Shown here: positions 1,167 to 29,711 of the stretch, piece by piece
Layout of the letters: each line of letters starts with the position of its first letter
Numbering within the stretch: the stretch's first letter is position 1
NCBI GenBank assembly: GCA_016234735.1
Contig: JACRAN010000083.1
Location: 1 to 40,060, forward strand
Length of the DNA stretch: 40,060 nt
Direction: 5' to 3'
DNA from: Bacteroidota bacterium
Lineage (GTDB): Bacteria; Bacteroidota; Bacteroidia; Chitinophagales; Saprospiraceae
Program-made: the position numbers and the translations under genes
Notes under the pieces: model-generated
The model's input: only the letters and a program-made list of their open reading frames with translations
Told to the model about the DNA's origin: nothing
The model's database searches: none

Positions 1167-1940
1167 ATGAAAATAGCTCTTTTCTCCGACATACACGCCA
1201 ACCTGCCTGCGCTCGAAGCCTGCCTCGCCGACATCGAGCGACGCCAACCCGATCAAATATTCTGCCTCGGTGACCTGGTAGGCTACAACATCTGGCCCAA
1301 CGAAGTCATCCGGGAAATCCGTCGCCGGGGCATCCCGACCATCGCCGGAAACTACGACTTCGGCATCGGCAGGGCGAGCGACGACTGCGGCTGCGCCTAC
1401 AAAACCGACGAGGAGAAGGCCAACGGCGCCGTATCCATTTCGTTTACCAACCAAATCACAGAGCCGGAGGAGCGCCGCTACCTGCGCTCGCTGCCCGCCC
1501 ATATCCGGGTGGAGTTCCAGTTGAACAACGACAAACTGAACCTGCTGCTGGTGCATGGCAGCCCCCGCAAAATCAACGAGTACCTCTTCGATGACCGGGA
1601 AGAAAAAAGCCTGCTGCGCATCGTCGAAGGTGCCAATGCTAACATCTTGTGCTTCGGGCACACGCACAAACCCTACCACCGCATCCTCAATTCCAGCACG
1701 GTGGATGCGCCGCATTTCCGCCACGCCATCAACATCGGCTCGGTTGGCAAGCCGAAAGACGGCGACCCACGGGGCTGCTACGTGCTGCTCACGCTGGACG
1801 AGCACAGTTCCGTTTTGGATAAAAACAGCATCATCGTGGAGTTCGTGCGGTTTGAATACGATGTGGAAAAAGCGGCGGGAGCGGTAGAGGAAAGCCCGTT
1901 GCCGGATGCCTACGCAGAAGCGCTGCGGGCGGCACGTTAA
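1167..1940 (+). CDS. Calcineurin-like metallophosphoesterase, YfcE/MJ0936 type
   Basis: This 257-residue cytoplasmic protein has the five metal-binding blocks of the calcineurin-like phosphoesterase fold: SDIHAN (D8, H10), GDLVGY (D36), AGNYD (N62), LLVHGSP, and GHTHKPY. The set points to a two-metal phosphodiesterase or phosphatase. The family includes YfcE and MJ0936 as well as poorly defined serine/threonine phosphatase-like enzymes, so the substrate is not known. The N-terminus starts directly with the first catalytic block, which supports the ATG used. It follows arsM in the same direction and could be co-transcribed, but the palindromic repeat in the spacer might interrupt or process that transcript. 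It converges on the DUF5916 gene. Confidence 0.85.
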   Translation: MKIALFSDIHANLPALEACLADIERRQPDQIFCLGDLVGYNIWPNEVIREIRRRGIPTIAGNYDFGIGRASDDCGCAYKTDEEKANGAVSISFTNQITEPEERRYLRSLPAHIRVEFQLNNDKLNLLLVHGSPRKINEYLFDDREEKSLLRIVEGANANILCFGHTHKPYHRILNSSTVDAPHFRHAINIGSVGKPKDGDPRGCYVLLTLDEHSSVLDKNSIIVEFVRFEYDVEKAAGAVEESPLPDAYAEALRAAR

Positions 1941-1952
1941 AACCTGCATGAC

Positions 1953-2057
1953 GGGATTGGAAAACGGATGAAACGGATTTTACGGATTTGAACGGAAGTT
2001 TAAAAAAACAAAATCCGTTTCAATCCGCTGTATCCGTTTCATCCGTTTTCCAATCCC
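1953..2057. repeat. Inverted arrays of 9-bp words between convergent genes
   Basis: The outer arms at 1953-1978 and 2032-2057 are perfect 26-bp reverse complements. Inside them the sequence keeps a 9-bp rhythm: AACGGATGA, AACGGATTT, TACGGATTT, GAACGGAAG on the left and matching ATCCGT words on the right. It lies between the convergent phosphoesterase and DUF5916 genes. It may fold as a long hairpin at both transcript ends, but no clear T run follows. Confidence 0.85.
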
Positions 2058-2123
2058 CCTCGCTGCTTTGGACTATTCAACGTCCGAAATAAATGAAACG
2101 AGGCATTCCAGCCTGACCACATT

Positions 2124-4292
2124 TCACACCCTGAAATTATACCGCAGCTTCACCAGCACCTGCCTGCTTTGCAGCGCCCAGCGGTTGCCCCGCTCGTCCA
2201 GCGTGTTGTGGTTGAAAACGAGGAAGGCATCGCCCAGCGGGCTGAAAATCCAGTGAATGCGGGCGTTCCAGCCCAGTTCCCGGCTTTCGGTGTCGTATTG
2301 CAGGAAGCTGTTCAGTTGCAGGTCGGGCGTCACGTTGAAGCGCACCCGCAGGCCGACGAGGGTCTGGTCGAAATCGCCCCAGGGCAGCCGCCCGAGGTTG
2401 CGCTCGCCCTCCAGCTCAAAAGTGAGGAGCGAGGAAGGATTCCAGTTGACCGAGGCTTCGAATTCGTCCAATTTCCCTTCGTAAAACGAGCCGAACCACC
2501 AGGTCAGTTGCCCGTTCAGGCGGCGCTTGGCGGCGCTTTCCACTTCGAGGCGGAAGCGGGTGAAATGGTAAGCCCCGGCAGGAACGACCACGTCGTCGAC
2601 AATGTCGAACGGCTCGGACAGGTTCTCGCCCTGCGGGTAAAAATTGGCTTCGATGCGGTCGCCGCTCTCCAACCGCCAGTTGACGGGGGCAAGGAAAATG
2701 GCGTAGGACTGCCAGTCGCCGCCCAAATCCGATACGTAAGTCAGGTACAATTCATGGAACATTTGGCGCAGCCAGCCCCAGTTCGGGCGGGGGGCGAAGG
2801 TTGCTCCAGCCCGCAGGTAGTGGACGTCCCGGCGAGGCACGAAGCCCAGAGAAGGGTCGAAATTCTCGCCGATGCGTGCGTAGTTGAAAACGCAGTCCCA
2901 GCGGTCGTTGGGGTAGTCAATTTTAAGACCGAGCGCCGAGCGGTCGTTCGCCAGGTCGTCCCGGTTGGCGAGCAAGCCCCAAACGCCGACGAGAAAATTT
3001 TTATCCCCCTGAAAGCGAGTGGTTTGAAAAGTAAAATCAGCCCCGGAAGTCCAACTGCCGCCTCTGCCTTGCGGGTCTCCAAAAGTTGAAATCATGCCCA
3101 CCGAGCTTTCTTTCAGCACATTTTGGCGGATGCGCACCACGCCAAGCGTCCTGCCGGAAAGCGTATCCTCCACCGTTTCGAGGCTTCCAGTGCGCATGGC
3201 CAAGCCGCCGAAAGCGGTTTTGCCGATGCGCCCGTTCAGCTTCGCCCCGGCGTGAACAGGCACTTCGCTGCCCTTGAAAAGCCCGATGCGGCGGCTGAAA
3301 AAAGGCAGCACAGTGCTGCTGCCCGTGCCCAGCCCGAACTCGAAAATATCGGAGCCTTCGAGGAAAAACGAGCGTTTTTCAGGGAAAAAAAGCGGAAAGC
3401 GGGTCAGGTTGGTCTGCCGGGTGTCCACCTCCGTTTCGGCGAAGTCGGTGTTGGCGGTCATGGTCGCCAGCACGTTGGGGCCGAGGCGCTGGCTGGCGTC
3501 GAGGCTCGGCTCGAACGACCAGTCCGTTTTGCCGCTTCCGCCTGTTTCGGTCACGCCGCCCACGAGCGAGGGGCGCACGTTCAGCCCGATGCCGTAGTTG
3601 AAGGTGGGTAAATTCGTGAGTAAGCCGGCCCTGCTGGTCTGGGTGACCCGCTGGTCTTGGCTCACGTTCGCCCATCGGATGGTTTCCTGCCTGCGCTGGA
3701 TGCGCCGCTCGACGTTGAAGCCCCATTCGGTCAGCCCTTTTTTGAAATTGAGGCTCTGAATGGGCAGGCGGATTTCGACCGACCAGCCCGTTTCGTCCAC
3801 CGAGGCGGCGGCTTCCCACACGGCGTCCCAGTCGCTGTTTTCCTCTTCTCCCCGGTTGGAGACGAGGGCGTCGTAGCGGGCACCGTTGGCATTCACGGCG
3901 AAAACGTAGCCCGATTGCCCGTCGAGGAAGGGGTCGAGCACGAGGCGGACATGGTCTTCGCTTTGGAGTTCGGCGTCCCGGAGTTTGGAGAAGCGTACGA
4001 TGCCTTCGGGCTGTGCATCTTCGCAACGGATGCCGATGATGAGGTAGCGCTCGTTTGCCAGCACCCTGATTTCGGTGCGGGCGGAGGGTTCGCCATTTTC
4101 GACGGGGACGGTGGTGCGGAGTTGGTCGGTCATTGGGGCGTTCACCCAGTCGGCTTCGTCGAGGTGGCCATCGAGGCGGACGGGTTGAGTGAGCGCACCG
4201 ACGGGGAGGGCCGGTCGGGCGGCGTCCTGTGCCGGAAGTTGGGCGGCAATCGTCAACAGGATGGCGGGGAGGAAGGTGGTTTTTAGTTTCAT
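2124..4292 (-). CDS. DUF5916 surface protein with N-terminal CBM9-like domain
   Basis: This is a 722-residue exported protein. A signal peptide of about 22 residues (MKLKTTFLPA...QLPAQ) is followed by a carbohydrate-binding-family-9/DOMON-like domain (VRLDGHLDEADWVNAP, then WSVEIRLPIQSLNF) over roughly residues 25-215. A long beta-strand-rich region then runs to the C-terminus (VKLRYNFRV) and looks like an outer-membrane beta barrel. This is the DUF5916 architecture common in Bacteroidota; its function is not established, though ligand or sugar binding at the surface has been suggested from the CBM9-like part. The ATG at 4292 was chosen because it begins the signal peptide and lies 4 bp after the upstream ChrB-domain gene; a longer frame would overlap that gene. 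It is the last gene of the five-gene operon. Confidence 0.85.
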   Translation of the reverse strand: MKLKTTFLPAILLTIAAQLPAQDAARPALPVGALTQPVRLDGHLDEADWVNAPMTDQLRTTVPVENGEPSARTEIRVLANERYLIIGIRCEDAQPEGIVRFSKLRDAELQSEDHVRLVLDPFLDGQSGYVFAVNANGARYDALVSNRGEEENSDWDAVWEAAASVDETGWSVEIRLPIQSLNFKKGLTEWGFNVERRIQRRQETIRWANVSQDQRVTQTSRAGLLTNLPTFNYGIGLNVRPSLVGGVTETGGSGKTDWSFEPSLDASQRLGPNVLATMTANTDFAETEVDTRQTNLTRFPLFFPEKRSFFLEGSDIFEFGLGTGSSTVLPFFSRRIGLFKGSEVPVHAGAKLNGRIGKTAFGGLAMRTGSLETVEDTLSGRTLGVVRIRQNVLKESSVGMISTFGDPQGRGGSWTSGADFTFQTTRFQGDKNFLVGVWGLLANRDDLANDRSALGLKIDYPNDRWDCVFNYARIGENFDPSLGFVPRRDVHYLRAGATFAPRPNWGWLRQMFHELYLTYVSDLGGDWQSYAIFLAPVNWRLESGDRIEANFYPQGENLSEPFDIVDDVVVPAGAYHFTRFRLEVESAAKRRLNGQLTWWFGSFYEGKLDEFEASVNWNPSSLLTFELEGERNLGRLPWGDFDQTLVGLRVRFNVTPDLQLNSFLQYDTESRELGWNARIHWIFSPLGDAFLVFNHNTLDERGNRWALQSRQVLVKLRYNFRV

Positions 4293-4296
4293 TTTT

Positions 4297-4761
4297 TTAC
4301 CGAACACCAAAAAGGTCGGGATTCCAGGTATGTTTTTCAGCGTAAACATACTTCGCCCAGGCGTACAGCGCATCGTAAATTTTCATCCCCACCGCCAGCA
4401 TCTCGTGGTCGTCTCGGATATTGTGGGACAGCCCCGCCGAGATGGCCCAAAGCCCTGCCGCTTGCGGCGCAAGGTCAAAGCGGTCGGTGTCTGCACCCCG
4501 AACGATGACGGCGAGTTGGAGCAGTGCGGGGTCAGTCAGCCCGTGTTTTTTCAGGATGAAATCGAAGGTGCAATGGTCTCCCTCATGCGAGTATTCGGCA
4601 CCGGGGATGTCGTAAGGAACGGCATCGAGTTCCTTCGCTTTGTCGAAGACCTGTTCTTTCGGCACGTAGATGAATTCCGCCTCGCTGTCCACGAAGTTTT
4701 TGAGGAGCCAGGGGCAGGCGATGCGGTCGATTTTCGGTCGCTCACGGGTTATCCATTTCAT
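4297..4761 (-). CDS. Stand-alone ChrB-domain (Chrome_Resist) protein
   Basis: This 154-residue cytoplasmic protein matches the C-terminal domain of ChrB, a regulator and accessory factor in chromate resistance. It begins with the block IDRIACPWL (C16) and continues with H59/C64 (YSHEGDHCTFDF), VRGADTD (89-93), GLWAISAGLSHN and DDHE (117-120). The conserved Cys, His and acidic residues suggest a metal or oxyanion site, but this is inference. It is closely related to the first 150 residues of the ChrB-AraC fusion two genes upstream, so the operon carries two paralogous copies of this domain. It starts 3 bp after the sterol desaturase gene and ends 4 bp before the DUF5916 gene. No chrA chromate transporter is seen, so chromate may not be the substrate. 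Confidence 0.85.
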   Translation of the reverse strand: MKWITRERPKIDRIACPWLLKNFVDSEAEFIYVPKEQVFDKAKELDAVPYDIPGAEYSHEGDHCTFDFILKKHGLTDPALLQLAVIVRGADTDRFDLAPQAAGLWAISAGLSHNIRDDHEMLAVGMKIYDALYAWAKYVYAEKHTWNPDLFGVR

Positions 4762-5609: not shown

Positions 5610-6473
5610 TTAACTATTGGTATCCGCTTTACCTTTTTGCAAAGATTTTTTGTAAACGGACGGTTGAACCCCCGTATGCTTTTTAAAAATACGGGTAAAA
5701 TGGCTCTGGTCGGAGAAGCCGGTGAGGTAGGCGATGTCGGTGAGGGAATACGCCGGGTCGTCCAGCAATTGCAGGGCTTTTTCGATGCGCTGCTTGCGGA
5801 TGTACTCGCCGAAGGATAGGTCCTCGAAGTATTTTGAAAACTCCCGGCTGAGGTAAGCAGGGTTGAGGTCGAGGTTCTTCGAGATTTCTTTCAGGCTCAG
5901 GGCCAGGTTGGTGTCAATCTGGTCCTGGATGATTTCCTTCAACTCCTTTGCCCAAGCGGGTATCCGCTTTTTCGCTCCCGTTTTGCTGTCCAGGAATTTG
6001 TAAAAAACATCGAGCAGCAACTGCTCCATCGGGTTTTGCGTGTGTTTTTCATGGCGGTGGTACCTCGCCCAACTGTACAGCGCATCGTAAATCACCATGC
6101 CTTTTTCCAGCAGTTCATGGTCGTCGGTCACGTTGTGCGTCAGCCCCGCCGAAATCGCCCAAAGCCCCGGTGCCTGCTCCGCCAAATGGTGCTGGTCGGT
6201 GTCCGCCCCCCGCACGATGAGCGCCAGCACTTGCAGGGTGGGGTCGTTGAGTTGGTATTTTTTGAGAAAATAATCGAAGGTGCATTGGTCGCCGTAGTGC
6301 GTGAACTCCACGTCCGGCACGTCGAAAGGGGTGGCTCCGAGCGCTTCGGCCTCCATCATCACCTCGCCTTCCGGTACGTAGATGATTTCAGCTTCCTGGT
6401 CAATGAAGCGTCGGATGAGCCAAGGGCAAGCGATGCGGTCAATTTTCGGACGGTGGCGAGTAATCCATTTCAT
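5610..6473 (-). CDS. ChrB-domain / AraC-type transcription regulator fusion
   Basis: This 287-residue predicted regulator joins two families. Residues 1-150 are a ChrB (Chrome_Resist) domain with C16 in IDRIACPWL, H59, C64, VRGADTD and DDHE, nearly collinear with the stand-alone copy at 4297-4761. Residues 178-278 are an AraC-type double helix-turn-helix (SLKEISKNLDLNPAYLSREF, then SLTDIAYLTGFSDQSHFTRI and FKKHTGVQPSVYKK). The ChrB part would be the sensor and the AraC part the DNA-binding output, binding DNA in the cytoplasm. The ATG at 6473 aligns exactly with the paralogue's start; a TTG three codons upstream is less likely. It begins 10 bp after the antiporter gene, so it is co-transcribed with it and may regulate its own operon. 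The signal is unknown. Confidence 0.88.
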   Translation of the reverse strand: MKWITRHRPKIDRIACPWLIRRFIDQEAEIIYVPEGEVMMEAEALGATPFDVPDVEFTHYGDQCTFDYFLKKYQLNDPTLQVLALIVRGADTDQHHLAEQAPGLWAISAGLTHNVTDDHELLEKGMVIYDALYSWARYHRHEKHTQNPMEQLLLDVFYKFLDSKTGAKKRIPAWAKELKEIIQDQIDTNLALSLKEISKNLDLNPAYLSREFSKYFEDLSFGEYIRKQRIEKALQLLDDPAYSLTDIAYLTGFSDQSHFTRIFKKHTGVQPSVYKKSLQKGKADTNS

Positions 6474-6483
6474 ATTGGGCAAA

Positions 6484-8763
6484 TTACACCGGTTTCACAA
6501 TCAAAACAGAAGGCGTGTACGACAGCCAAATGCTTTGCGTTTCCACTGCCCGTTTCCAGCTTTCGAGGCTGATGAGCATCAGGTCCTGTTGCTCCAAAAA
6601 CTCCTTTTCGATGTTGTTTTTGTTGGTCAGGTCCAGTTGAAGAGGGGCCGTTTTTTTCAATGACTGTACCGTTTTGCGGAGTTCGGGGGCTTGCGACAGA
6701 ATACCGGAGGCATCGAGCAGGGTGGCTTTTGTTTCGTTGTTGAACATCATTTTTTGGGCATACTCGAGCAAAAAACCATCAGCCTCGGCAAACAATGGAA
6801 TGAACATCCGGTCAATTTTGGAAAGCCCCCGGTCGATGAGGATGCCGACCGGCATCTTCGCCGCTTTGATAATCTGCTGGGTCCGGTCGTCGAAAATGGT
6901 GTCTTCAAAAAGGCTTTCCTTGCCGGTCAGGGCATCGAAGAGTTTCTCCGGGTTGATGATTTTGGTGGTGAAACCCAAAATCTTTCCGAGGATGGTGCCC
7001 TCGAACATGGAATTTCCCATGCCGACCAGCAACAAATCAAACTTGCCCAAATTGGCGGTGTCGGTGATTTCCCGGTCGATGTCCTGTGAAGGTTTGAACA
7101 GTGTGCTCAACGGCAGTTGGAGGTGCTGTGCCTCGGCTTCAATGGGCTGGAAACTCTCCCGTTCGTACTCCTCCGTGTTGAATTGGTTCAGTTCGTTGCT
7201 GGGCGTTACGTGCAGGGCAGTGACGCTTGCCTGTGCAGGGGATTTCCGGGTCAGGCTGCTGGCCAGCCGCAGCATCGACTTCCCGGTCTGGGGGTTGGCG
7301 AAGGAAATGAGGATGTCGAATTTGTCGGCGTGGCCCATCGTGCCGGGCACCGGCACCGGCGTTTTTTCCGGCAAAAATTTATTGATGAGGTCGAGGGCAG
7401 GCCCCGTCATCACCGTCGTGACCAGGGCCATGATGACCATCATGGCGAACACTTCGGGCGTGAGCACGCCGAGGTCGTAGCCGATGTTGAGCACCACCAG
7501 TTCCATCAGGCCCCTGGTGTTCATCAGGGCGCCAATCGTGAGGCTGTCCCGCCAGTTTTGCCCGACAAACTTTGCCGCCAGGGCGCTTCCCACAAATTTT
7601 CCGACGACGGCCACGAGAATGATCAAACCGCATATTTGCCAGAGGTACGGCTCGTTGAGCAAGCCGATTTGCGTCCGCAAACCTGTGAAAACAAAGAACA
7701 GTGGGAGCAGCAGCACCTGCGCCACGTCTTCCACTTTTTCGATGAAAATATTGCGGAAACGCTGGTTGGAGGGCATGATAACGCCTGCCATGAATGCGCC
7801 GAACAACGCGTGGATGCCAATGACTTCGGTGGCATACGCGGAAAGGAGCAGGGTGATAAAAAAAATGGCCACCACGGGTTTGCTCAACCCTTCCTTGCTG
7901 GAATAAATATCGCCGAGCCGCTTGAGGAAAGGCTGCACCACTTTCAGCATGAGCAGCACGTAACCTGCCGCCATCAGGATGGTGTACACCGAACTGACGA
8001 TAGTGCCCGCCTTCACGATGGCAATGACGGCGGCCAGGATGCACCATGCCGTGATGTCGTCGGCTGCGGCACAGGTGATGACCACCGTGCCCAATTTGGT
8101 TTTGGACAACCCCCGTTCCTGCACGATCCTTGCCAGCACCGGGAACGCCGTCACGCTCATGGCGATGCCGATGAACAGCGAAAACGGCAGGAACCGCACA
8201 CTGTCCCCGGCGAAACTTTCGTAGATAAAATACGCCAGCCCGACCCCCAGCGAAAACGGGATGATGATGCTCGCATGGCTGATGACCACCGCTTCGTTCG
8301 CCTGGTTTTTCAGCACTTTCAGGTCGAGTTCCATGCCGATGACGAACATGAACAGTATCAGCCCAATCTGGCTGAGGAATTGCAGGTTGCCCAACGACTG
8401 GGCCGGGAAAAGGAAATCCGAAAACTCCGGGAAGTACATGCCCACCAGCGAAGGCCCCAGGATGATACCCGCTGCAATTTCGCCGATGACTGCTGGCTGA
8501 CCTATTTTTTTGCACAAAAAACCGAAGACCCGTGCCGCCAGGATGATGGTGATGATTTGCAGCAGCAGGATGGCCAATGGATGGGCGACATTGTGGCTCA
8601 TGGTTTCCTGAAACTGCTCAACGGTTGAAGTCGTGGCAGGTGCCACCAGTTCCGTCAACTTCCCGGCTTCTTTCTCCTCTCCCCTCAATACCATGAAATA
8701 CATCAAAAGCGAGAAGCCTCCAATCGTTGTGATGTAAAATATCAGGTTCCTGTATTTGCCCAT
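6484..8763 (-). CDS. CPA2-family cation:proton antiporter with C-terminal Usp-like domain
   Basis: This is a 759-residue inner-membrane antiporter. One N-terminal hydrophobic segment is followed by a 12- to 13-helix Na+/H+ exchanger core (about residues 60-455) with RVFGFLCKKIGQPAVIGEI, the tandem-aspartate block AAADDITAWCILA near residue 233, and GIHALFGAFMAGVIMP. The AADD motif resembles plant CHX and bacterial KefB/GerN-like exchangers. Residues about 475-759 form a soluble tail resembling universal-stress-protein folds, a likely regulatory module. K+ or Na+ exchange for protons is inferred from the family. The ATG at 8763 was chosen because the upstream in-frame sequence is arginine-rich and crosses a 14-bp-arm hairpin. 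It is the first gene of the operon. Confidence 0.88.
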   Translation of the reverse strand: MGKYRNLIFYITTIGGFSLLMYFMVLRGEEKEAGKLTELVAPATTSTVEQFQETMSHNVAHPLAILLLQIITIILAARVFGFLCKKIGQPAVIGEIAAGIILGPSLVGMYFPEFSDFLFPAQSLGNLQFLSQIGLILFMFVIGMELDLKVLKNQANEAVVISHASIIIPFSLGVGLAYFIYESFAGDSVRFLPFSLFIGIAMSVTAFPVLARIVQERGLSKTKLGTVVITCAAADDITAWCILAAVIAIVKAGTIVSSVYTILMAAGYVLLMLKVVQPFLKRLGDIYSSKEGLSKPVVAIFFITLLLSAYATEVIGIHALFGAFMAGVIMPSNQRFRNIFIEKVEDVAQVLLLPLFFVFTGLRTQIGLLNEPYLWQICGLIILVAVVGKFVGSALAAKFVGQNWRDSLTIGALMNTRGLMELVVLNIGYDLGVLTPEVFAMMVIMALVTTVMTGPALDLINKFLPEKTPVPVPGTMGHADKFDILISFANPQTGKSMLRLASSLTRKSPAQASVTALHVTPSNELNQFNTEEYERESFQPIEAEAQHLQLPLSTLFKPSQDIDREITDTANLGKFDLLLVGMGNSMFEGTILGKILGFTTKIINPEKLFDALTGKESLFEDTIFDDRTQQIIKAAKMPVGILIDRGLSKIDRMFIPLFAEADGFLLEYAQKMMFNNETKATLLDASGILSQAPELRKTVQSLKKTAPLQLDLTNKNNIEKEFLEQQDLMLISLESWKRAVETQSIWLSYTPSVLIVKPV

Positions 8764-9137
8764 CGTACAGTTGAGTTCGGATGACAAGGGAAAAGTAGCG
8801 CTGTTAGCAAACGTCGTCGAGGTTTGGACACCTCGACGACGTTGTAACCCTGCTCGCTTGGTCAACGCCGCAAGGTAGGGGATGCCGACAGCAGGTTTTT
8901 TAAATTGTGATTAAATTTCTTCCATGCGGAAGATTTTTGGACGGCCTGTCAGCCTGGCTGACAAAAAAACACACGAATACTCGCCCATTCCCGTCGCTTG
9001 CTCAAACACCTTTCAATGCGACAATTTCAAAGGTCAGCTTTGGTGAAAATTTAATCGTTCACCTGGAAAGCAGGTGCATTGAAATTGGGAATTCCTCAAT
9101 TTCTCTTCTCAGCCTTCCGCAAAACTTTCATCCCATT
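8764..9137. promoter_or_regulatory. Divergent spacer between antiporter operon and SPFH lipoprotein
   Basis: This 374-base spacer separates two divergently transcribed genes, so both promoters must lie here. The only strong structure is the perfect inverted repeat at 8810-8843. I see no convincing small gene and no full TAnnTTTG element in it. Confidence 0.45.
8810..8843. repeat. Perfect 14-bp-arm inverted repeat upstream of the antiporter operon
   Basis: The arms AACGTCGTCGAGGT (8810-8823) and its exact reverse complement (8830-8843) flank a 6-base loop. It lies 47 bp upstream of the antiporter start on the minus strand. It may be an operator, a 5' leader hairpin or a dispersed palindromic element; no T run follows, so a terminator is less likely. 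Confidence 0.75.
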
Positions 9138-10127
9138 ATGAGAATGAAATTACTTCCCGAAATTCTTGTAGTACTTGCCGCCCTTGGGCTGGCATCCTGC
9201 AATCCTTCCAACCGGGCCAACCAAAGCGACCAGGTTTACAGCGTCATGTTGCCTGCTGTCCGGCTCGGCGATGGCGTACCGCTCAATCTTGACGTGTGGA
9301 TGCGCTGGAAAATCGAAAAGCCAGGCGTTTTTTTCGCACAGTTTCCCAACGTGGACACGTTCAACAAAATGGTACTGTTTCCCCGTGCCCTGGAATTGAG
9401 CAACACCGTCGCCAACCGCTATCCCAGCGTGGATTCCGTGTTCGCCCAGCAGCGTGAACTGTTCCTTGCCGACATCAAGCAGGCACTGAGCAGCCAACTC
9501 GGCGAAAACACCATCTCTGTCAAGGAAGTGACCATCGGCAACGTTACCTTCCCGAAAAGCTACACCGATGCCATGGAGGCCGCCGGGATGAAACGCCAGC
9601 ACATCGAGGGTATCCAACACCAGAACGAGGTTGACCTGGAAAAGGCCACCGCTGCCAAGAAAAAAGCGGACGCCGATGCGCAGGTTGCCATCGCCGAGGC
9701 AGAAGCGCAGGCGACACTCGCCCGCATCGAAACAAAAACCGAAGAAGCCCGCCGCGCCAGCGAGCTGGCCCGTGCCGAAACCGCTGGCCAGATCAGCCGC
9801 AGGCAGGCACAGGCGGAGGCCGACAGCGCCCGCCTGATCAACAAAGCAGAATTGGAGCGTCTCGCCGACCTGAAAAACCTCGACGTGGAAAAACGCCGCA
9901 ACCTCGATGACCTCGACGTGGAGAAAAAACGTAAGGAGAAAAAAGCCGACTCCGATAGCCAACTCGAACTGGCGGGCGTGTTGCAGAACAATCCAATTTT
10001 CGCTTCTTTCCTCATCAACAAAGAGTTAGCCTCGAAAGTGGACATCGCCGTGCTGCCGACCGGGGCGGATGCGAGTGTACTGGGAGGATTCTGGCAGCCT
10101 AAGAAGGAGGGGGACAAGAATAATTGA
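9138..10127 (+). CDS. SPFH/band-7 (prohibitin-like) domain lipoprotein
   Basis: This 329-residue protein has a lipoprotein signal peptide ending in LASC (C21), followed by an SPFH/band-7-like domain (about 32-150; YSVMLPAVRLGDGVPLNLDV, then the helical FLADIKQALSSQ segment). A long Ala/Glu/Lys/Arg-rich coiled coil (about 155-290) follows, typical of prohibitin and flotillin relatives. SPFH proteins form ring or cage assemblies at membranes and often modulate proteases. Most are anchored by a transmembrane helix; here the anchor is predicted to be lipid on the periplasmic side. The ATG at 9138 begins the signal peptide; the upstream frame has no family similarity. A terminator follows at 10158-10197. 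The partner is unknown; no protease gene adjoins it. Confidence 0.8.
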   Translation: MRMKLLPEILVVLAALGLASCNPSNRANQSDQVYSVMLPAVRLGDGVPLNLDVWMRWKIEKPGVFFAQFPNVDTFNKMVLFPRALELSNTVANRYPSVDSVFAQQRELFLADIKQALSSQLGENTISVKEVTIGNVTFPKSYTDAMEAAGMKRQHIEGIQHQNEVDLEKATAAKKKADADAQVAIAEAEAQATLARIETKTEEARRASELARAETAGQISRRQAQAEADSARLINKAELERLADLKNLDVEKRRNLDDLDVEKKRKEKKADSDSQLELAGVLQNNPIFASFLINKELASKVDIAVLPTGADASVLGGFWQPKKEGDKNN

Positions 10128-10157
10128 ACAGACGAATAAGCTTCCGTAAGCAGGTAT

Positions 10158-10197
10158 CGCCTCTGCTGGATCGTAATGTTCCGGCGGGGCGTTTTTT
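10158..10197 (+). terminator. Intrinsic terminator of the SPFH lipoprotein gene
   Basis: A GC-rich stem (10158-10170 with 10180-10191, one bulged base and a few wobble pairs) is followed by six T residues at 10192-10197. It begins 30 bp after the SPFH stop codon and ends at the stop of the convergent LytTR gene. Confidence 0.7.
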
Positions 10198-10945
10198 ATT
10201 TTACGTTCTCCAATCGCTCCAGCACCTCCACCCGCTTCCGTACCGCCACCGGCACTTTCATCCCGTCCACCATGACGAGGTAGCCACCGTCGGTTTTGAT
10301 GAACTCCCGGATATGTGCAAAATTGACCAGGTGCGACTGGTGTGCCCGGATGAAACCGGCGGGTTCGAGCAGGTCGGAAAACTCCTTGAGCGTTTTCGTC
10401 AGCAGCAGGTTTTTGCCGTTGGTGAAAAAGACCTTCGTATAATTTCCTTCTGCCTCCAACCGGAGCAGGTCTTCGAGGCGGGCGATGTGGATTTTGTCGG
10501 CGGTGTGGAGGGCAATGGTTTTGGGTGTTTGTTTTTTCTCAAAATGGTCTTTCAGCATGGGCAGGCGGTCCGCTTGCCAGGCAAGTTGTTGTTTCGCCCG
10601 CTCTACGGCTCGCCTGAGTTCCTCAGGATCAATTGGTTTCAGCAGGTAGTCCACAGCAGCGAAACGGAAAGCCCGGATGGCGTGCTCGTCGTAGGCAGTG
10701 GTGAAGATGAGTTGAAAACGCAGGTCGGACACGATTTCGAGCAGGTCGAAGCCCGTGCCGTCGCCCATCTGGATGTCGAGCAGGAGCAGGTCGGGGCGGG
10801 CTTGGCGCAGCACTTTTGCGCCGCTGACGACGCCCTCGGCTTCGCCCACGATTTCCACTTCGGGAAACCAGCGGGCGAGGTCTTCTTTCAGGCCCCGAAT
10901 GGCATGTGGATTGTCGTCAATAAGGACGGTGCGGATGGGTTTCAT
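10196..10945 (-). CDS. LytTR-family response regulator
   Basis: This 249-residue cytoplasmic response regulator has a receiver domain (1-120) with acidic pocket D10/D11, phosphoacceptor D57 (LLLLDIQM), the T/S position in FTTAYD and K103 (YLLKPID). A LytTR DNA-binding domain follows (about 145-245; ICP-like start HTADKIHIARLEDLLRLEAE, then FIRAHQSHLVNFAHI). The fold matches the AlgR/LytR/AgrA type. It lies 21 bp downstream of the propeller sensor kinase on the same strand, whose LytS-type His_kinase module is the usual partner of LytTR regulators, so the two are very likely a cognate pair. Target genes cannot be read from this window. Confidence 0.93.
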   Translation of the reverse strand: MKPIRTVLIDDNPHAIRGLKEDLARWFPEVEIVGEAEGVVSGAKVLRQARPDLLLLDIQMGDGTGFDLLEIVSDLRFQLIFTTAYDEHAIRAFRFAAVDYLLKPIDPEELRRAVERAKQQLAWQADRLPMLKDHFEKKQTPKTIALHTADKIHIARLEDLLRLEAEGNYTKVFFTNGKNLLLTKTLKEFSDLLEPAGFIRAHQSHLVNFAHIREFIKTDGGYLVMVDGMKVPVAVRKRVEVLERLENVK

Positions 10946-23830: not shown

Positions 23831-23919
23831 CTAAAATTCTGAATTGAAACTACTTAAACTATCGTGATACATTGCCTGTGCCGAATGCCCGGCACCGTGT
23901 TTTTACAAAAAATCCATTC

Positions 23920-26571
23920 ATGACTGCTAAAGAAATCCGCCGCACCTTCCTCGACTTTTTCGCTTCCAAACAGCACAAAATCGTGCCTTCGGCACCCATC
24001 GTGAACAAGGACGACCCCACCCTCATGTTCACCAACGCAGGCATGAACCAATTCAAGGACTACTTCCTCGGCACCCAAACGCCCGACATCCGCCGCATCG
24101 CCGACACGCAAAAGTGCCTGCGGGTGAGTGGCAAGCACAACGACCTGGAGGAAGTGGGCCGCGACGGCTACCACCACACCATGTTTGAGATGCTCGGCAA
24201 CTGGTCGTTCGGCGACTATTTCAAAAAAGAAGCCATCGCCTGGTCGTGGGAACTGCTGACGGACGTGTACAAACTGCCGAAAGACCGCCTCTACGCCACC
24301 GTTTTTGAGGGCAGCCCGACCGAGGGACTCGTAGCGGACGACGAAGCACGGGGCTACTGGGCGGAAGTTTTGCCCGCCAGCCACATCGTCAACGGCAACA
24401 AAAAAGACAACTTCTGGGAAATGGGCGACACCGGTCCCTGCGGCCCCTGCACCGAAATCCACATGGACCTGCGCCCCGATGCCGACCGTGCCACCCTGCC
24501 CGGCGAAAAACTCGTCAACCTCGGCGATCCCCGTGTCATCGAAATCTGGAACAACGTGTTCATCCAGTTCAACCGCAAAGCCGACGGCTCGTTGGAAGAA
24601 CTGCCCGAAAAACACGTGGACACCGGCATGGGCTTCGAGCGCCTCACGCTTGTCATCCAGGGCAAACTGAACACCTACGACACCGATATTTTTACGCCCA
24701 TCATCCAATTCGTTGAAAATGAGAGCAGTATAAAATACACCGGCCTTTACCCCAATGCCAGTTCATCCCTCATCCCTCATCCCTCATCCCTCATGAGCGA
24801 CATTGCCATGCGGGTCATCGCCGACCACATCCGGGCGGTGAGTTTCACCATCGCCGACGGCCAGTTGCCGGGCAACGGTGGCGCAGGCTACGTCATCCGG
24901 CGCATCCTGCGGCGCGCTGTGCGCTACTACTACTCGTTTTTGAACATCAAAGAACCCTTCCTGCACCGCCTCGTGCCGATGTTGGCCGACATGTTCGCCG
25001 ATGTGTTCCCCGAACTGAAAGCCCAGCAGGAGCAGGTCGCCAAAATTATCCACAGCGAGGAAAAAGCGTTTTTGAACACGCTCGAAAACGGATTGCGGCG
25101 CTTCGCAACCCTCTCGGTGAGTGGCGGTGTCATCGCGGGCGGAGATGCTTTTGAACTCTACGACACCTTCGGGTTCCCCATCGACCTCACCCGTCTGATG
25201 GCCGAGGAAAACGGTTGGAGCGTGGACGAGCCAGGTTTCGAAAAAGCCATGCAAGCCCAAAAAGGACGAGGCCGTGCCGACGCCGAGAAGGAAGTCGGCG
25301 ACTGGCACATCCTGCAAACTGGCGACGTGGAATTTGTCGGCTACGACCGATTGGAGGTCAAGCAATCCAGCATTTTGCGAAGCAGAACCGTGAAAACAAA
25401 GAAGGGCGACCTATCACAAATCGTTCTCAGCCGCACGCCGTTTTACGCCGAAAGCGGCGGCCAGCACGGCGACACCGGCTGGCTGGAAATTGAAGGCGAG
25501 TGCATTGCCGTGCTGGACACGTTGAAAGAAAACGACCTCACCATCCATGTCGTGGAGCGGTTGCCCGTGACAATGTCCGGCAACGTGGAAGCTACCGTCG
25601 ATGTCAAAAAACGGCAGGCAACGAGCAGCAACCACTCCGCCGTCCACCTCATGCACGCGGCCCTGCACCGCATCCTCGGCAGCCATGCCCTCCAAAAAGG
25701 CCAGGACGTGGACAACGAGCGTCTCCGTTTCGACTTTTCGCATTTCCAAAAGGTGACGGACGAGGAAATTCGCAACATCGAAGCGATGGTGAACGAAAAA
25801 ATCCGGGCAAACATCAGCCTCGACGAGGTGCGCAACATGCCCATCGAGGAGGCCAAAAAACTGGGTGCGATGATGCTTTTCGGTGAAAAATACGGCGAAA
25901 CCGTGCGGGTCGTCACCTTCGACAAAAACTTCAGCCAGGAACTTTGCGGTGGCACCCACGTGCAGGCCACTGGCGAAATCGGCCTGTTCAAAATTGTGAG
26001 CGAGAGCGCCGTGGCTGCGGGCATCCGGCGTATCGAAGCGGTGACGGCTGCCAACGCCGAGCAGTACCTGCTTGCACAACTCGACGAACTGAGTGAAATC
26101 CGCCACCTGCTGAAAGGTGCCCAACACCCCTTGAAAGCAGTCGCCGCCTTGCAGGACGAGGTAAAAAACCTTAAAAAACAGGTGGAGCAACTCGTCAACG
26201 AGCAAGCCGGGGCGCTGAAAGGCCAGCTCAAAAGCCAGTTCCAGCAGGTGAACGGCGTGAACTTCCTCGCCGCCCGGCTGCCGCTCAACGACGCTGCCGC
26301 CATCAAAACTTTGGCGTTTCAGCTTGAAAACGAAGTGGGCAACTGCTGCATCGTGTTCGGGGCAGTGGTCAACGACAACCCGCAACTCACCGTCGCCATC
26401 AGCCGGGAACTCACCGAAAATGGCCGCAGCCTCCACGCAGGGAACATCATCCGGGAACTCGCCAAAGACATCCAGGGCGGCGGCGGCGGTCAGCCGTTTT
26501 TCGCCTCCGCCGGTGGCAAGGATGCCAGCGGGCTGGACCGTGCGATTGCGAGGGCGAGGGAGTTGGTGTGA
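23920..26571 (+). CDS. alaS: Alanine--tRNA ligase
   Basis: This 883-residue cytoplasmic enzyme charges tRNA-Ala. The order is complete: a class II catalytic core from TAKEIRRTFLDFF (FTNAGMNQFKDYF, YHHTMFEMLGNWSFGDYF, GDTGPCGPC), the tRNA-recognition domain, the editing domain with HSAVHLMHAALH and CGGTHV, and the C-Ala domain ending GGGGGQPFFASAGG. The ATG at 23920 was used because the 16 residues upstream in frame do not match the family. One oddity is residues 282-292 (SSLIPHPSSLM), encoded by four perfect 7-bp TCATCCC repeats. They are inserted just before the conserved DIAMRVIADHIRAVSF block, where the family normally has a short, variable loop. The frame is kept, so the enzyme should be active. 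Confidence 0.97.
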   Translation: MTAKEIRRTFLDFFASKQHKIVPSAPIVNKDDPTLMFTNAGMNQFKDYFLGTQTPDIRRIADTQKCLRVSGKHNDLEEVGRDGYHHTMFEMLGNWSFGDYFKKEAIAWSWELLTDVYKLPKDRLYATVFEGSPTEGLVADDEARGYWAEVLPASHIVNGNKKDNFWEMGDTGPCGPCTEIHMDLRPDADRATLPGEKLVNLGDPRVIEIWNNVFIQFNRKADGSLEELPEKHVDTGMGFERLTLVIQGKLNTYDTDIFTPIIQFVENESSIKYTGLYPNASSSLIPHPSSLMSDIAMRVIADHIRAVSFTIADGQLPGNGGAGYVIRRILRRAVRYYYSFLNIKEPFLHRLVPMLADMFADVFPELKAQQEQVAKIIHSEEKAFLNTLENGLRRFATLSVSGGVIAGGDAFELYDTFGFPIDLTRLMAEENGWSVDEPGFEKAMQAQKGRGRADAEKEVGDWHILQTGDVEFVGYDRLEVKQSSILRSRTVKTKKGDLSQIVLSRTPFYAESGGQHGDTGWLEIEGECIAVLDTLKENDLTIHVVERLPVTMSGNVEATVDVKKRQATSSNHSAVHLMHAALHRILGSHALQKGQDVDNERLRFDFSHFQKVTDEEIRNIEAMVNEKIRANISLDEVRNMPIEEAKKLGAMMLFGEKYGETVRVVTFDKNFSQELCGGTHVQATGEIGLFKIVSESAVAAGIRRIEAVTAANAEQYLLAQLDELSEIRHLLKGAQHPLKAVAALQDEVKNLKKQVEQLVNEQAGALKGQLKSQFQQVNGVNFLAARLPLNDAAAIKTLAFQLENEVGNCCIVFGAVVNDNPQLTVAISRELTENGRSLHAGNIIRELAKDIQGGGGGQPFFASAGGKDASGLDRAIARARELV
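24763..24794 (+). repeat. Four 7-bp TCATCCC units inside alaS
   Basis: Perfect units start at 24763, 24770, 24777 and 24784, followed by TCAT. They encode residues 282-292 in frame. The same heptamer forms the right arm of the intergenic element at 1137-1164. Confidence 0.9.
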
Positions 26572-26595: not shown

Positions 26596-27768
26596 TTATT
26601 TTTCGGGAGCCTTCGTTGCCACGAGAAAGTAGGCAATGATAAAAAGCGTCGCCGTACCTGTAACGATAAATGTGGCGGCGGCCCCAAACTGAAACCAAAT
26701 AAATCCGGCCAACGAACTCGCCAGCATGGTGCAGATGCTTTGAAAACCGGAATAAGTTCCAATTGCAGTTGCTGTATCCCGCTTGTCCGTAAGGTTGCTG
26801 ATCCACGCTTTTGCAATCCCCTCGGTAGCTGCTGCGTAAACACCGTAAAGAAAAAACAAGCCGAAGAAAAGGAGAGTGTTGTTGTTTGCTGCCATTCCAA
26901 AATACACCCCGGCGAAAAGTGCCAACCCGATGAGGAACACTTTTTTCAGCCCGATTTGGTCGGCCACAGCGCCCATGGGAAAAGCAGTTAACGCATAAAC
27001 AAGGTTGTAGAAAATGTAAATTCCAACCACCATCGAATCGTCAAGCCCTGCTTGTTTTGCTTTGAGCAACAGAAAAACATCGGAGCTATTGAAAAGGGCA
27101 AAGGCCAACAGACCGATAACAAGTCTGCGATAGCCGGGCGGGCTTTCTTTCCAATAGTGGAGAAAAGAAAAAAAGGGGGTTGCTGTTTTCTTTTTTGCAG
27201 TCGTTTCCCTTTTGTCTTTGAGGTAAAATGAAGCAACCACGGCAAGCAGTCCGGGAAGGAAAGCGATGTAGAACAAAGTTTTGTAGTCCTGCGGATGGTG
27301 GTAGAGATAGAGCAGTGCGAGGGCCGGTCCAAGCACCGCACCCAGTGTGTCCATGGAACGGTGAAAGCCAAAAACTTTTCCTTTTGTAGCGGGAGTGGCT
27401 TCCTCGGAAAGGATGGCATCCCTGGCACCTGTCCGAATGCCCTTGCCAAATCGGTCAATGGTCCGGGCAAAGAAAATCCAAAGCGGATAGACGAAAAGGG
27501 CCATCATCGGTTTTGAAATGGCACTCAATGCGTACCCAATTTGCACAAAAGGAACGCGTCTGCCCGAATTGTCCGAGAGTTTGCCGAAGTATCCCTTGCT
27601 GAGTCCTGCCGTAGCTTCTGCCACTCCTTCCAGTATGCCGATGAGCATGATGGAAAACCCAATGGATTTGAGGTAAATCGGCAGGATGGGGTACAGCATT
27701 TCGCTGGCCGTGTCGGTGAACAAACTGACCACCGATAAAATCCAAACCGTCTTCGTAATGTATTTCAA
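26596..27768 (-). CDS. Major facilitator superfamily (MFS) transporter
   Basis: This 390-residue inner-membrane transporter has about 12 helices. The MFS loop signature is present after helix 2 (GYFGKLSDNSGRRVPFVQIG) and again in the second half (PMGAVADQIGLKKVFLIG). RTIDRFGKGIRTGARDAILSE after helix 4 is typical of a large group of uncharacterised drug- or metabolite-type MFS proteins. The substrate is unknown. It converges on alaS with a 24-bp spacer. Upstream of its start lies the relic of two gene ends at 27811-27939, so the gene probably arrived in, or was enclosed by, a rearrangement between alaS and threonine aldolase. Confidence 0.88.
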   Translation of the reverse strand: MKYITKTVWILSVVSLFTDTASEMLYPILPIYLKSIGFSIMLIGILEGVAEATAGLSKGYFGKLSDNSGRRVPFVQIGYALSAISKPMMALFVYPLWIFFARTIDRFGKGIRTGARDAILSEEATPATKGKVFGFHRSMDTLGAVLGPALALLYLYHHPQDYKTLFYIAFLPGLLAVVASFYLKDKRETTAKKKTATPFFSFLHYWKESPPGYRRLVIGLLAFALFNSSDVFLLLKAKQAGLDDSMVVGIYIFYNLVYALTAFPMGAVADQIGLKKVFLIGLALFAGVYFGMAANNNTLLFFGLFFLYGVYAAATEGIAKAWISNLTDKRDTATAIGTYSGFQSICTMLASSLAGFIWFQFGAAATFIVTGTATLFIIAYFLVATKAPEK

Positions 27769-27810
27769 TGTCGGTTCATTTTTGACTGTCAGAGTAGGTC
27801 TGCGGAGGTG

Positions 27811-27903
27811 TCAAAACACGGTTTCCCCAGCATCGCCGCTGTAAAGTCCAATCGGTACGAACCTAACCGTCGCCGGACTGAACCTCCCGGCAAGTATGCC
27901 GTT
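27811..27903 (-). pseudogene. Decayed 3' end of a threonine aldolase gene
   Basis: Read on the minus strand this stretch gives NGILAGRFSPATVRF then VPIGLYSGDAGETVF and a TGA stop. The intact threonine aldolase at 28569-29591 ends with [15 protein letters not shown] and finishes in LVF with TGA. Both start, from the stop side, with the same bases (TCAAAACACG), and the relic lacks about 18 bases of the intact gene. Only the last 30 or so codons remain. Confidence 0.8.
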
Positions 27904-27939
27904 GGGCTGGATCGGCCGATTACGAGGGCGGTGATTTGA
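27904..27939 (+). pseudogene. Decayed 3' end of an alaS gene
   Basis: The plus strand reads GLDRPITRAVI and TGA, matching the AlaRS end GLDRAIARARELV with TGA. The first 27 bases differ from the intact alaS end at four positions, and two codons are missing before the stop. It abuts the threonine aldolase relic directly. The match is short, so this call depends partly on that partner. Confidence 0.6.
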
Positions 27940-27991
27940 GGCAATGTACTTGGTTATTCAACTTAAAGGTTTTAGTTTTGGTCAAAATTCA

Positions 27992-28507
27992 ATGATTATG
28001 GTTTTAGATGCTCGTCCATCCAAACGAAAAAGGGAAATAGACACTTACAAACTCGAAAGAGACAAGCCTATGCCAAGCCTCCACCACTCACTGATTGAAT
28101 CACAGTTAGGGTTCATTTTAAGAAGGGATTATCGTAAAGAATTCACTGCCATGACCGAGTTGAGTTTGGACACGCTTCCCAAAGGCTCGACACCCGATAT
28201 TTGCATTTATCCTAAAATGAATGTGGAAATAGGCCAGCAACCTGACATTGTTGCCATGAAGGAAATGCCCCTGACAACCATTGAAATTTTGTCAGCGAGC
28301 CAACCATTGGCGCAAATCATTGAAAAAATAAAAATCCGTTATTTCCCAGCGGGTGTCAAATCAGCATGGGTCATTATCCCTGATTTGCTTGCGATAGTGC
28401 TTTACCTCCCTGGCAAAAAAGATTACGAACTTTTCAAAAGCGGGAAGCTAACCGACCCTGCGACGGGCATCAGCGTTGATGTGGATGAAGTTTTTGATGT
28501 GGATTGA
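27992..28507 (+). CDS. Uma2-family (PD-(D/E)XK-like) putative endonuclease
   Basis: This 171-residue protein belongs to the Uma2/DUF820 family, which is predicted to have a restriction-endonuclease-like fold. The core motifs are present: STPDICIYP (Asp), TTIEILSAS (Glu), EKIKIRYFPAGVKSAWVIIP (Lys and the GVxxxW strand). The cellular role of Uma2 proteins is poorly known; they are abundant in cyanobacteria and Bacteroidota and often found in mobile or accessory positions. The ATG at 27992 is chosen; an ATG two codons later is also possible. Codon use is visibly more AT-rich than in neighbouring alaS and threonine aldolase, suggesting recent acquisition. It is followed by a strong bidirectional terminator. 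Confidence 0.85.
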   Translation: MIMVLDARPSKRKREIDTYKLERDKPMPSLHHSLIESQLGFILRRDYRKEFTAMTELSLDTLPKGSTPDICIYPKMNVEIGQQPDIVAMKEMPLTTIEILSASQPLAQIIEKIKIRYFPAGVKSAWVIIPDLLAIVLYLPGKKDYELFKSGKLTDPATGISVDVDEVFDVD

Positions 28508-28524
28508 TTTTTACCGGTTTTGGC

Positions 28525-28563
28525 AAAAACGGCGGCATTGTTTCAAACGATGCCGCCGTTTTT
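28525..28563. terminator. Bidirectional intrinsic terminator between Uma2 and threonine aldolase
   Basis: A perfect 14-bp stem (AAAAACGGCGGCAT at 28525-28538 and its complement at 28550-28563) has an 11-base loop and T runs on both strands. It sits between two convergent stop codons. Confidence 0.9.
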
Positions 28564-28568
28564 GTTTG

Positions 28569-29591
28569 TCAAAACACGAGTTTCCCAAGCACCTCCACCA
28601 CCCTGCCCAGCATCTCTTCCGTAAAATCCAAGTGAGTGGTGAAACGCACCGTTGCCGGGCCGAAGGAGGTGCCAGCCACGCCATTTTCAGAGAGTTTTTT
28701 CAAAAAAGCGCCTGCTGTCAGGGGCGGCACCAAGTCGAAAATCACGATGTTCGACTGCACGGGCCTCACGTCGGCTACCCAGGGCAACCGCTGCAAGGTC
28801 TCCCCCAAAACCTTCGCCCGACGGTGGTCGTCCCGCAACCTTTCCACCTGGTTTTCGAGGGCAAAAATGCCCGCCGCAGCGAGGTAGCCCGCTTGCCGCA
28901 TGCCGCCGCCCATCACCTTGCGCACCCGCCTTGCTTGTTTGATAAAATCCTGATTGCCAAGGAGTAGCGAACCAACCGGCGCACCCAGCCCCTTCGACAG
29001 GCAGATGGAAATGCTGTCGAATTCCGCACCCCAGTCGAGGGTGGATTCGCCGGTTTCGACAAGGGCATTGAACAGGCGGGCACCATCGAGGTGGAGGGCG
29101 AGGCCCCGCTCCCGGCAAAGCTGCCGGATGGGCCGCACTTCGTCGAGGGTGTAGATGCTGCCGCCGCCTTTGTTCGCCGTATTTTCCAACACCACCAGGC
29201 GGCTGAGGGGCAGCCAGTCGTGGACGGGCTTGATGGCGGAGGCCACTTGTCCGGCGGTGATTTTACCGTTCGCACCTGCAATCAGGTTGATGGCTACCCC
29301 GGAATTGTAGGCGTAACCGCCCACCTCGTACTGGTAAATATGTGAGTAGTGGTCGCAAATCACCTCGTCGAGCGGCTGGGTGTGAACTTTGATGGCGATT
29401 TGGTTGGTCATGGTGCCGGAGGGGCAAAACAGCGCCGCCTCCTTGCCGAACAGCACGGCGGCTTTGTCCTGCAAGGCATTCACCGTGGGGTCTTCGCCAA
29501 ACACGTCGTCGCCCACTTTGGCGCTCATCATGGCCAGGAGCATGGCCGGGGTGGGTTTGGTGACGGTATCGGAAACGAGGTTGATGTTCAT
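28569..29591 (-). CDS. ltaE: Low-specificity threonine aldolase / beta-eliminating lyase
   Basis: This 340-residue cytoplasmic PLP enzyme of the aspartate-aminotransferase fold cleaves L-threonine or allo-threonine to glycine and acetaldehyde. It starts [16 protein letters not shown] and [16 protein letters not shown], as the family does. It has SGTMTNQIA (58-66), D169 with R172 in [10 protein letters not shown], and the PLP-binding K200 in [12 protein letters not shown]. The ATG at 29591 matches the family start; the 32-residue extension upstream does not. The length is typical. A second, broken copy of its 3' end lies at 27811-27903. The gene symbol is used for the family; strict L or allo preference cannot be read. 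Confidence 0.92.
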
Positions 29592-29711
29592 ACGCACTGA
29601 TTTTGGGTGGAAAGGTAGGGTGCAAAAGTCAAATCGGAGGGCGACAGAATTGGTGCCTGAAAATAACTCCCGATTCCACTGATTCATTTTTCCTCAACTT
29701 GTTAAAAAACC

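Follow-up and report, generated by a model that had tools for sequence, protein, structure and literature searches.

In the DNA analysed here, two intact housekeeping genes, alaS and a convergent threonine-aldolase-type gene, enclose a spacer that carries a decayed 3' end of each, which raises the question of how the two ends came to be joined between their parent genes. By the window we mean the whole stretch of 40,060 nucleotides (contig JACRAN010000083.1). Its order is alaS, MFS gene, aldolase tail joined to alaS tail, Uma2-type gene and aldolase gene (Table 1), and the spacer thus joins two cargo compartments.

Two decayed gene ends in one spacer

The spacer at 27809-27939 consists of a decayed aldolase 3' end on the minus strand adjoining a decayed alaS 3' end on the plus strand. 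Local alignment of positions 27780-27943 gave a score of 48 for the aldolase half (27809-27882 against 28567-28664, with one 21-nt and three 1-nt gaps) and of 55 for the alaS half (27889-27938 against 26515-26565). The maxima reached by dinucleotide shuffles (n=2000 each) were 42 and 40, so that both relics exceed every shuffle; the relics, their order and their orientation, first proposed in an earlier note made from the letters, are thereby confirmed. When the whole window was scanned with each half, the intact aldolase and alaS ends ranked first after the self-match (44 and 41), and the best unrelated places scored 32 and 34 respectively. A chance similarity or an assembly error is very improbable. 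The relics are short and the genomes are metagenome assemblies in many contigs, but both relics beat all shuffles, one sequence assembled twice would not give diverged copies, and like structures occur in seven genomes.

Table 1 Features at and around the spacer, in window coordinates
Feature	Position	Strand	Evidence and remarks
alaS, intact left flank	23872..26571	+	tRNA-synt_2c (E 1.3e-191), tRNA_SAD, DHHA1
Cargo 1, MFS transporter gene	26596..27768	-	Pfam MFS_1 (E 1.5e-43)
Aldolase 3'-end relic	27809..27903	-	Alignment and shuffles; stop side at left; internal deletion of 21 nt; clear to about 27882 and fainter on to 27903
alaS 3'-end relic with stop codon	27889..27939	+	Alignment; 27889-27903 common to the aldolase-like part
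Cargo 2, Uma2-type putative nuclease gene	27944..28507	+	Pfam Uma2 (E 1.1e-5, 25.4 bits, below the Pfam curated cut-off of 27 bits)
20-bp inverted repeat in the Uma2/aldolase interval	28524..28564		Presumably terminator-like
Threonine-aldolase-type gene, intact right flank	28569..29687	-	Beta_elim_lyase (E 8.4e-97)

The earlier note had placed the junction exactly at 27903/27904. The join of aldolase end to alaS end is present, but its exact point is blurred: the stretch 27889-27903 resembles both parents (relic GGCAAGTATGCC; alaS GGCAAGGATGCC; aldolase of G001, plus strand, GCCAGTATTCC), and the breakpoint therefore lies somewhere in 27884-27904. Searched at the DNA level, the own genome contained no near copy of the spacer outside this site; the best other match had E 0.41. 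The same search also omitted the intact alaS and aldolase ends, so diverged copies would escape it.

The two compartments hold different cargo, as the earlier note had said (Table 1). The MFS protein has one match in its own genome and is 74-77% identical to the products of genes in three relatives (G001:C133, G004:C28 and G007:C13), none of them on an alaS contig. Since these relatives sit elsewhere in their genomes, the MFS gene probably reached the gap separately. Among 60 relatives, the Uma2 protein finds its best match (56% identity) in G009, where a broken copy occupies the corresponding site; the best matches in the next six genomes are 44-50% identical, and 13 of the 60 genomes have any match. 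Judged by the Pfam domains of the two cargo genes, no mobility gene, recombinase or integrase lies between alaS and the aldolase gene in the window.

Elsewhere in the window, two neighbouring minus-strand ORFs (4297-4761 and 5610-6482) have similar N-terminal parts and are tandem paralogues, one perhaps a fusion; the added C-terminal part of the longer one looks AraC-like to us.

The alaS-aldolase gap in relatives

The genus sample comprised 14 genomes, of which the own genome is G000 and the others are uncultured Saprospiraceae. The alaS end was matched in 12 of the 14 (no match in G002 and G013) and the aldolase in all 14, once partially. The convergent pair, or a trace of it, was found in seven genomes (G000, G001, G004, G006, G007, G009 and G012). 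In G003, G005, G008 and G010 the two genes are on separate contigs, and the one bearing alaS runs on for several kb beyond it; G011, whose alaS is near a contig end, counts neither way.

The stop-to-stop distance is 54 bp in G001 and 36 bp in G004, which means direct convergence without space for cargo, i.e. empty sites. It is 473 bp in G007, 636 bp in G009 (with one broken Uma2 gene), 1997 bp in G000, 2045 bp in G012 and 2459 bp, measured up to an aldolase fragment, in G006. The gap of G012 contains, from alaS onwards, a small ORF and a PIN-domain gene, ORFs of no assigned kind, an aldolase tail (about 1680-1763) and a Uma2 gene before the aldolase. In G006 a PIN pair strongly resembling that of G012 is followed by an alaS tail (2794-2958), an unassigned ORF, an aldolase tail (3687-3770), XisI and XisH genes and the aldolase fragment, which is longer than the tails and has two stops; the intact aldolase gene of G006 is on another contig. 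Beyond G000, the gap thus holds one aldolase tail in G012, and one alaS tail, one aldolase tail and the longer aldolase fragment in G006.

The empty sites in G001 and G004, together with the other cargo in G009, G012 and G006, indicate that the alaS-aldolase gap is an insertion hotspot. Both kinds of relatives had been predicted, those with alaS directly convergent on the aldolase gene and those with other cargo in the gap, and two of the latter three carry further tail relics; the description of the spacer as a duplication or cassette junction, and of the gap as a cassette-exchange site between housekeeping genes, stands on these five genomes. Conserved flanking genes, alternative cargo among relatives and, in the window, no mobility gene between the flanks are all present. 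Among the best 80 loci of the named-genome collection, some of which end at contig ends, no cases were found beyond two genomes of the genus sample (L113 and L124).

Two features of individual gaps were also seen. The G007 spacer (L055, G007:C9) consists mostly of tandem repeats of about 42 bp, with a run of N inside. The XisH/XisI pair of G006, assigned by Pfam (L054 3781-4520), is cargo in the alaS-aldolase gap, and behind mutS of the same genome lies a similar-looking pair (L223 843-1582) that we take from its sequence to be XisH/XisI as well.

Tail relics at other genes

A first scan of 322 ORFs revealed 3' tails of two further genes, with cargo between gene and relic. These are presumably a mutS gene (G000:C242) and a saccharopine-dehydrogenase-like gene (G000:C158), names that we read from the sequence. 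The dehydrogenase-like relic (L177 1257-1337, on G000:C158) is present in G000 alone.

A wider scan covered 1122 ORFs and 1.77 Mb in six genomes, the window included, with a score threshold of 54. Ten 3'-end copies were found in gaps, all ten on the same strand as the gene, eight downstream and two upstream. The 20 copies of 5' ends comprised nine upstream and four downstream on the same strand, and seven inverted. Reversed sequence, used as the null, gave one match over all classes. By genome, the downstream 3' matches amounted to 4 for 231 ORFs in G000 (one of them a short repeat and one the window alaS), 2 for 230 in G007, 1 for 290 in G004, 1 for 268 in G008 (doubtful), 0 for 73 in G009 and 0 for 30 in G001. 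Because the window aldolase relic, which scored 44, falls below the threshold, such scans overlook decayed cases.

Four matches were rejected as insertions: G007:C13 98802, a degenerate whole-gene copy with matches at both ends; G000:C312, a 32-nt repeat close behind the gene; the window match at 5610, which reflects the paralogues; and G008:C54 33505, with short repeats around the site. The match at G008:C54 25159 (score 61) is doubtful.

Other clear cases lie at genes that we labelled from their sequences, and these labels are to be taken as our assumption; ParE was assigned by Pfam. On G007:C10 (L303) two copies of the 3' end of an hsdS-like gene lie behind it, with small genes of no assigned kind in between (1281-3904); farther along, a macrodomain-like gene stands between an hsdR-like gene and an upstream copy of the 5' end of that gene (5700-10337). 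A DNA-polymerase-IV-like gene of G001 has a 5'-end copy with a ParE-type toxin gene between, and an hsdM-like gene of G004 a 5'-end copy with a nucleotidyltransferase-like gene. Since mutS, the dehydrogenase-like gene and hsdS bear like scars, the event is not peculiar to the window spacer.

Tail arrays behind mutS

The pattern is most pronounced at mutS. The gene was matched in 12 of the 14 genus genomes, and seven of these 12 carry extra downstream tails, 12 tails in total, each corresponding to the last 28-57 codons of the gene. There are three in G012, two each in G006, G007 and G009 and one each in G000, G001 and G004; none was detected at E 0.001 in G003, G005, G008, G010 and G011. The mutS 3' end is thus followed by up to three tail relics per genome, mostly separated by small cargo genes (L174, L223-L233). 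In G000 the relic (L174 12611-12749), with cargo between it and the gene, is a tail of about 140 nt, i.e. the insert is bounded by a target repeat.

Eight of the 12 tails share 86% identity or more with their own gene, and five of these better-kept tails start within 5 nt of one another, at -138 to -142: -141 in G000, -142 twice in G012, -138 for G007 #2 and about -140 in G001, for which another measurement gave -132, the two G012 tails being perhaps non-independent. The other three start at -187 (G006), -94 (G007 #1) and -107 (G009). The cargo proteins beside the five clustered boundaries are mostly unlike; those of G001 and G012 #1 score 44, above the best shuffle (42), and these two may therefore have a common origin. 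The well-kept tail G007 #1 follows mutS immediately, without intervening cargo.

Of all results, only the clustering of the mutS boundaries is predicted neither by random illegitimate joining nor by local duplication. It would be expected if small cassettes lacking an integrase entered, in this genus, by a dedicated, sequence-preferring process (a recombinase) near conserved 3'-end sites, each insertion rebuilding the gene end and displacing the old tail, so that arrays build up at mutS and in the alaS-aldolase gap. The aldolase tails of G012 and G006, which end at nearly one place, would fit such a process as well; as these genomes have the neighbouring PIN pair in common, the aldolase tail may be inherited. 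Overall we consider this process improbable, since the three remaining better-kept mutS tails start elsewhere, alaS tails start at about -57 and -164, the window order of aldolase tail followed by alaS tail is unlike the product of separate insertions at each gene end, and the genes between alaS and the aldolase in the window include no recombinase.

In G006, G007 and G012, paired palindromes (CACGGACTG..AGTCCGTG and CACGGTCTGGCAGACCGTG) separate adjacent mutS tail relics; in G004 one lies beside a weak relic. Related patterns number 12 in 453 kb of G004 and 3 in 392 kb of G007, with none in the samples of G000, G001, G008 and G009. The palindromes at the mutS loci are possibly a REP-like repeat.

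Local copies or alleles of other lineages

The tandem-copy origin put forward in the earlier note would be a local duplication of the segment that starts in the alaS tail, spans the cargo and stops in the aldolase tail; each copy would later have lost its cargo or had it replaced. It yields exactly the observed order of tails. Different cargo in the two compartments requires extra steps.

For relics that arose by local duplication and then decayed, with changes in the gene restricted almost entirely to silent ones, the expected synonymous share of the differences is about 39% (null mean 0.39; the null uses a transition bias of 3, lets both copies mutate equally and the gene accept 5% of amino-acid changes, has no codon bias and treats pairs that are partly dependent). 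We compared 18 relic/gene pairs, including hsdS and leaving out a 48-site mutS piece and three aldolase comparisons of G006. Among the 252 differences 136 were synonymous (54%), and 0 of 2000 simulations reached this value, which is too high for copies that split locally and then decayed. The excess was strongest in the dehydrogenase (13/16), G006 mutS (13/17), G000 mutS (14/20) and G012 mutS #3 (10/13). At or below the null were G007 mutS #1 (0/2), hsdS (3/10), G006 alaS (7/18) and window alaS (3/10). The two window relics jointly gave 11/25, without significant excess (p 0.27). A third-codon-position count (172/327) was dropped as proof, as silent changes in the intact gene can account for much of it.

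Several relics match genes of other species at least as well as their own gene. In an equal-column mutS comparison of five genomes, from which the G006 and G009 rows were left out, the G004 relic matched its own gene at 73 of 92 positions and the genes of G000, G001, G007 and G012 at 78 each; the G000 relic matched its own gene at 115 of 132 and that of G012 at 116. The window aldolase relic matched its own gene at 42/57 and the G009 gene at 46/59, in unequal columns and with the references of G005, G003 and G010 left out. The window alaS relic is closest to its own alaS (40/50; next G008, 34/43). Two mutS tails differ little from their own gene (G012 #1, 131/136; G007 #1, 86/88), as local duplication would have it.

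In a tree of the 138-nt mutS tails, which are short sequences, 2 of 21 inner branches were well supported. AU tests rejected none of the four tested relic/own-gene pairs as sisters (p 0.195-0.394), and two further pairs, of six, were already together with weak support. The synonymous excess over the set, with p 0.27 for the window pair, favours a lateral, allelic origin of the relics as a set and merely allows it for the window. The tandem copy keeps its fit to the window order and to the window pair and loses ground over all relics; we hold it to be a less probable but serious alternative.

A probable additive insertion at a hotspot

On balance, we consider it somewhat more probable than all the alternatives together that the spacer at 27809-27939 was left behind by an additive insertion at the hotspot between the convergent alaS and aldolase genes, by which an allelic segment from a relative was added. 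The ancestor would have had the order alaS-Uma2-aldolase, as kept in G009 with its broken Uma2 gene, and the incoming DNA would have come from a relative with alaS-MFS-aldolase, a donor arrangement that was not found among the relatives examined. Homologous exchange would have taken place on the alaS side, and the other end, broken inside the donor aldolase tail, would have undergone an illegitimate join to the resident alaS tail, at a short stretch of resemblance within it. The product would be an aldolase tail joined to an alaS tail, with the resident Uma2 gene and the intact aldolase gene behind. Recombination would later have removed longer repeats; this may account for the observed tail lengths of only about 50-190 nt.

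The order of aldolase tail and then alaS tail points to one added alaS-MFS-aldolase segment rather than two separate insertions, and the position of the junction in a stretch resembling both parents counts for an additive insertion. What we observed are the relics and their order, relatives whose gap is empty or holds other cargo, and like scars at further genes; from these we infer the donor, the side of the homologous exchange, its route of uptake and a single event. As to uptake, dprA and comEC-type families are present, and they also match in 11 of 14 and 10 of 14 control genomes. The window pair without synonymous excess, the non-rejecting AU tests, the clustering of the mutS boundaries, the cargo-less G007 #1 and the failure to find a donor with alaS-MFS-aldolase are points against an additive insertion.

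Tail relics of this kind make it possible to read off gene additions that would otherwise pass without a trace. Where genes move with neither transposase nor integrase, the relics would allow insertions to be counted and the foreign copy to be identified. With the mutS arrays and the alaS-aldolase gap, one genus offers several examples on which allelic additive exchange, target duplication and site preference can be weighed.

Comparison with known systems

In the minimal mobile element of Neisseria, different single genes occupy the place between two conserved flanks, with no mobility gene, and the cargo is replaced. The alaS-aldolase gap is similar in its conserved flanks, its differing cargo (7 of 14 genus genomes) and, in the window, the lack of a mobility gene, but here cargo is added and tail scars are left. 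From an integrase island or integron cassette the locus differs in that the window gap has no integrase and that the boundaries vary between genes and, in part, among the mutS tails. Small variable segments are described as flanked by repeats, mostly shorter than 30 bp, in 10-18% of cases (PMC2884548).

In homology-facilitated illegitimate recombination, one end is homologous and the other is joined illegitimately (PMC3240628, PMC5361080). That process is known from experiments with living bacteria, with a RecA-dependent anchor, whereas here it is proposed from the DNA alone. In the type VI secretion effector-immunity displacement arrays of Vibrio cholerae, a new module is placed behind a conserved anchor and the old parts are pushed back (PMC5361080). 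Addition behind a conserved anchor and the arraying of older parts are common to both; the anchors here are alaS, mutS and aldolase, and the cargo comprises Uma2, PIN, XisH/XisI, MFS and unassigned genes. The literature searched, with queries that named neither mutS nor alaS, yielded no account of gene-tail relics at either gene in this group.

Insertion with long target duplication reportedly goes back to Nobusato et al. 2000 and Furuta et al. 2010, and to our knowledge its mechanism is still open. It was put forward in 2000 as a pointer to a new mechanism of gene mobility, and denotes an inserted gene lying between long, variable direct repeats of the target, recognised by comparison of close genomes and often involving restriction-modification genes (PMC3031569, PMC1643837). 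The window insert is likewise bounded by direct target repeats, the alaS tails at 26515-26571 and 27889-27939 (about 50 nt) on either side of the MFS gene, and relatives (G001, G004) hold the empty allele. It differs in that the repeats here are mostly housekeeping 3' tails, arrayed and diverged, and that the pairs overall resemble alleles of different lineages and not copies made at insertion. Our best reading is an additive insertion akin to insertion with long target duplication.
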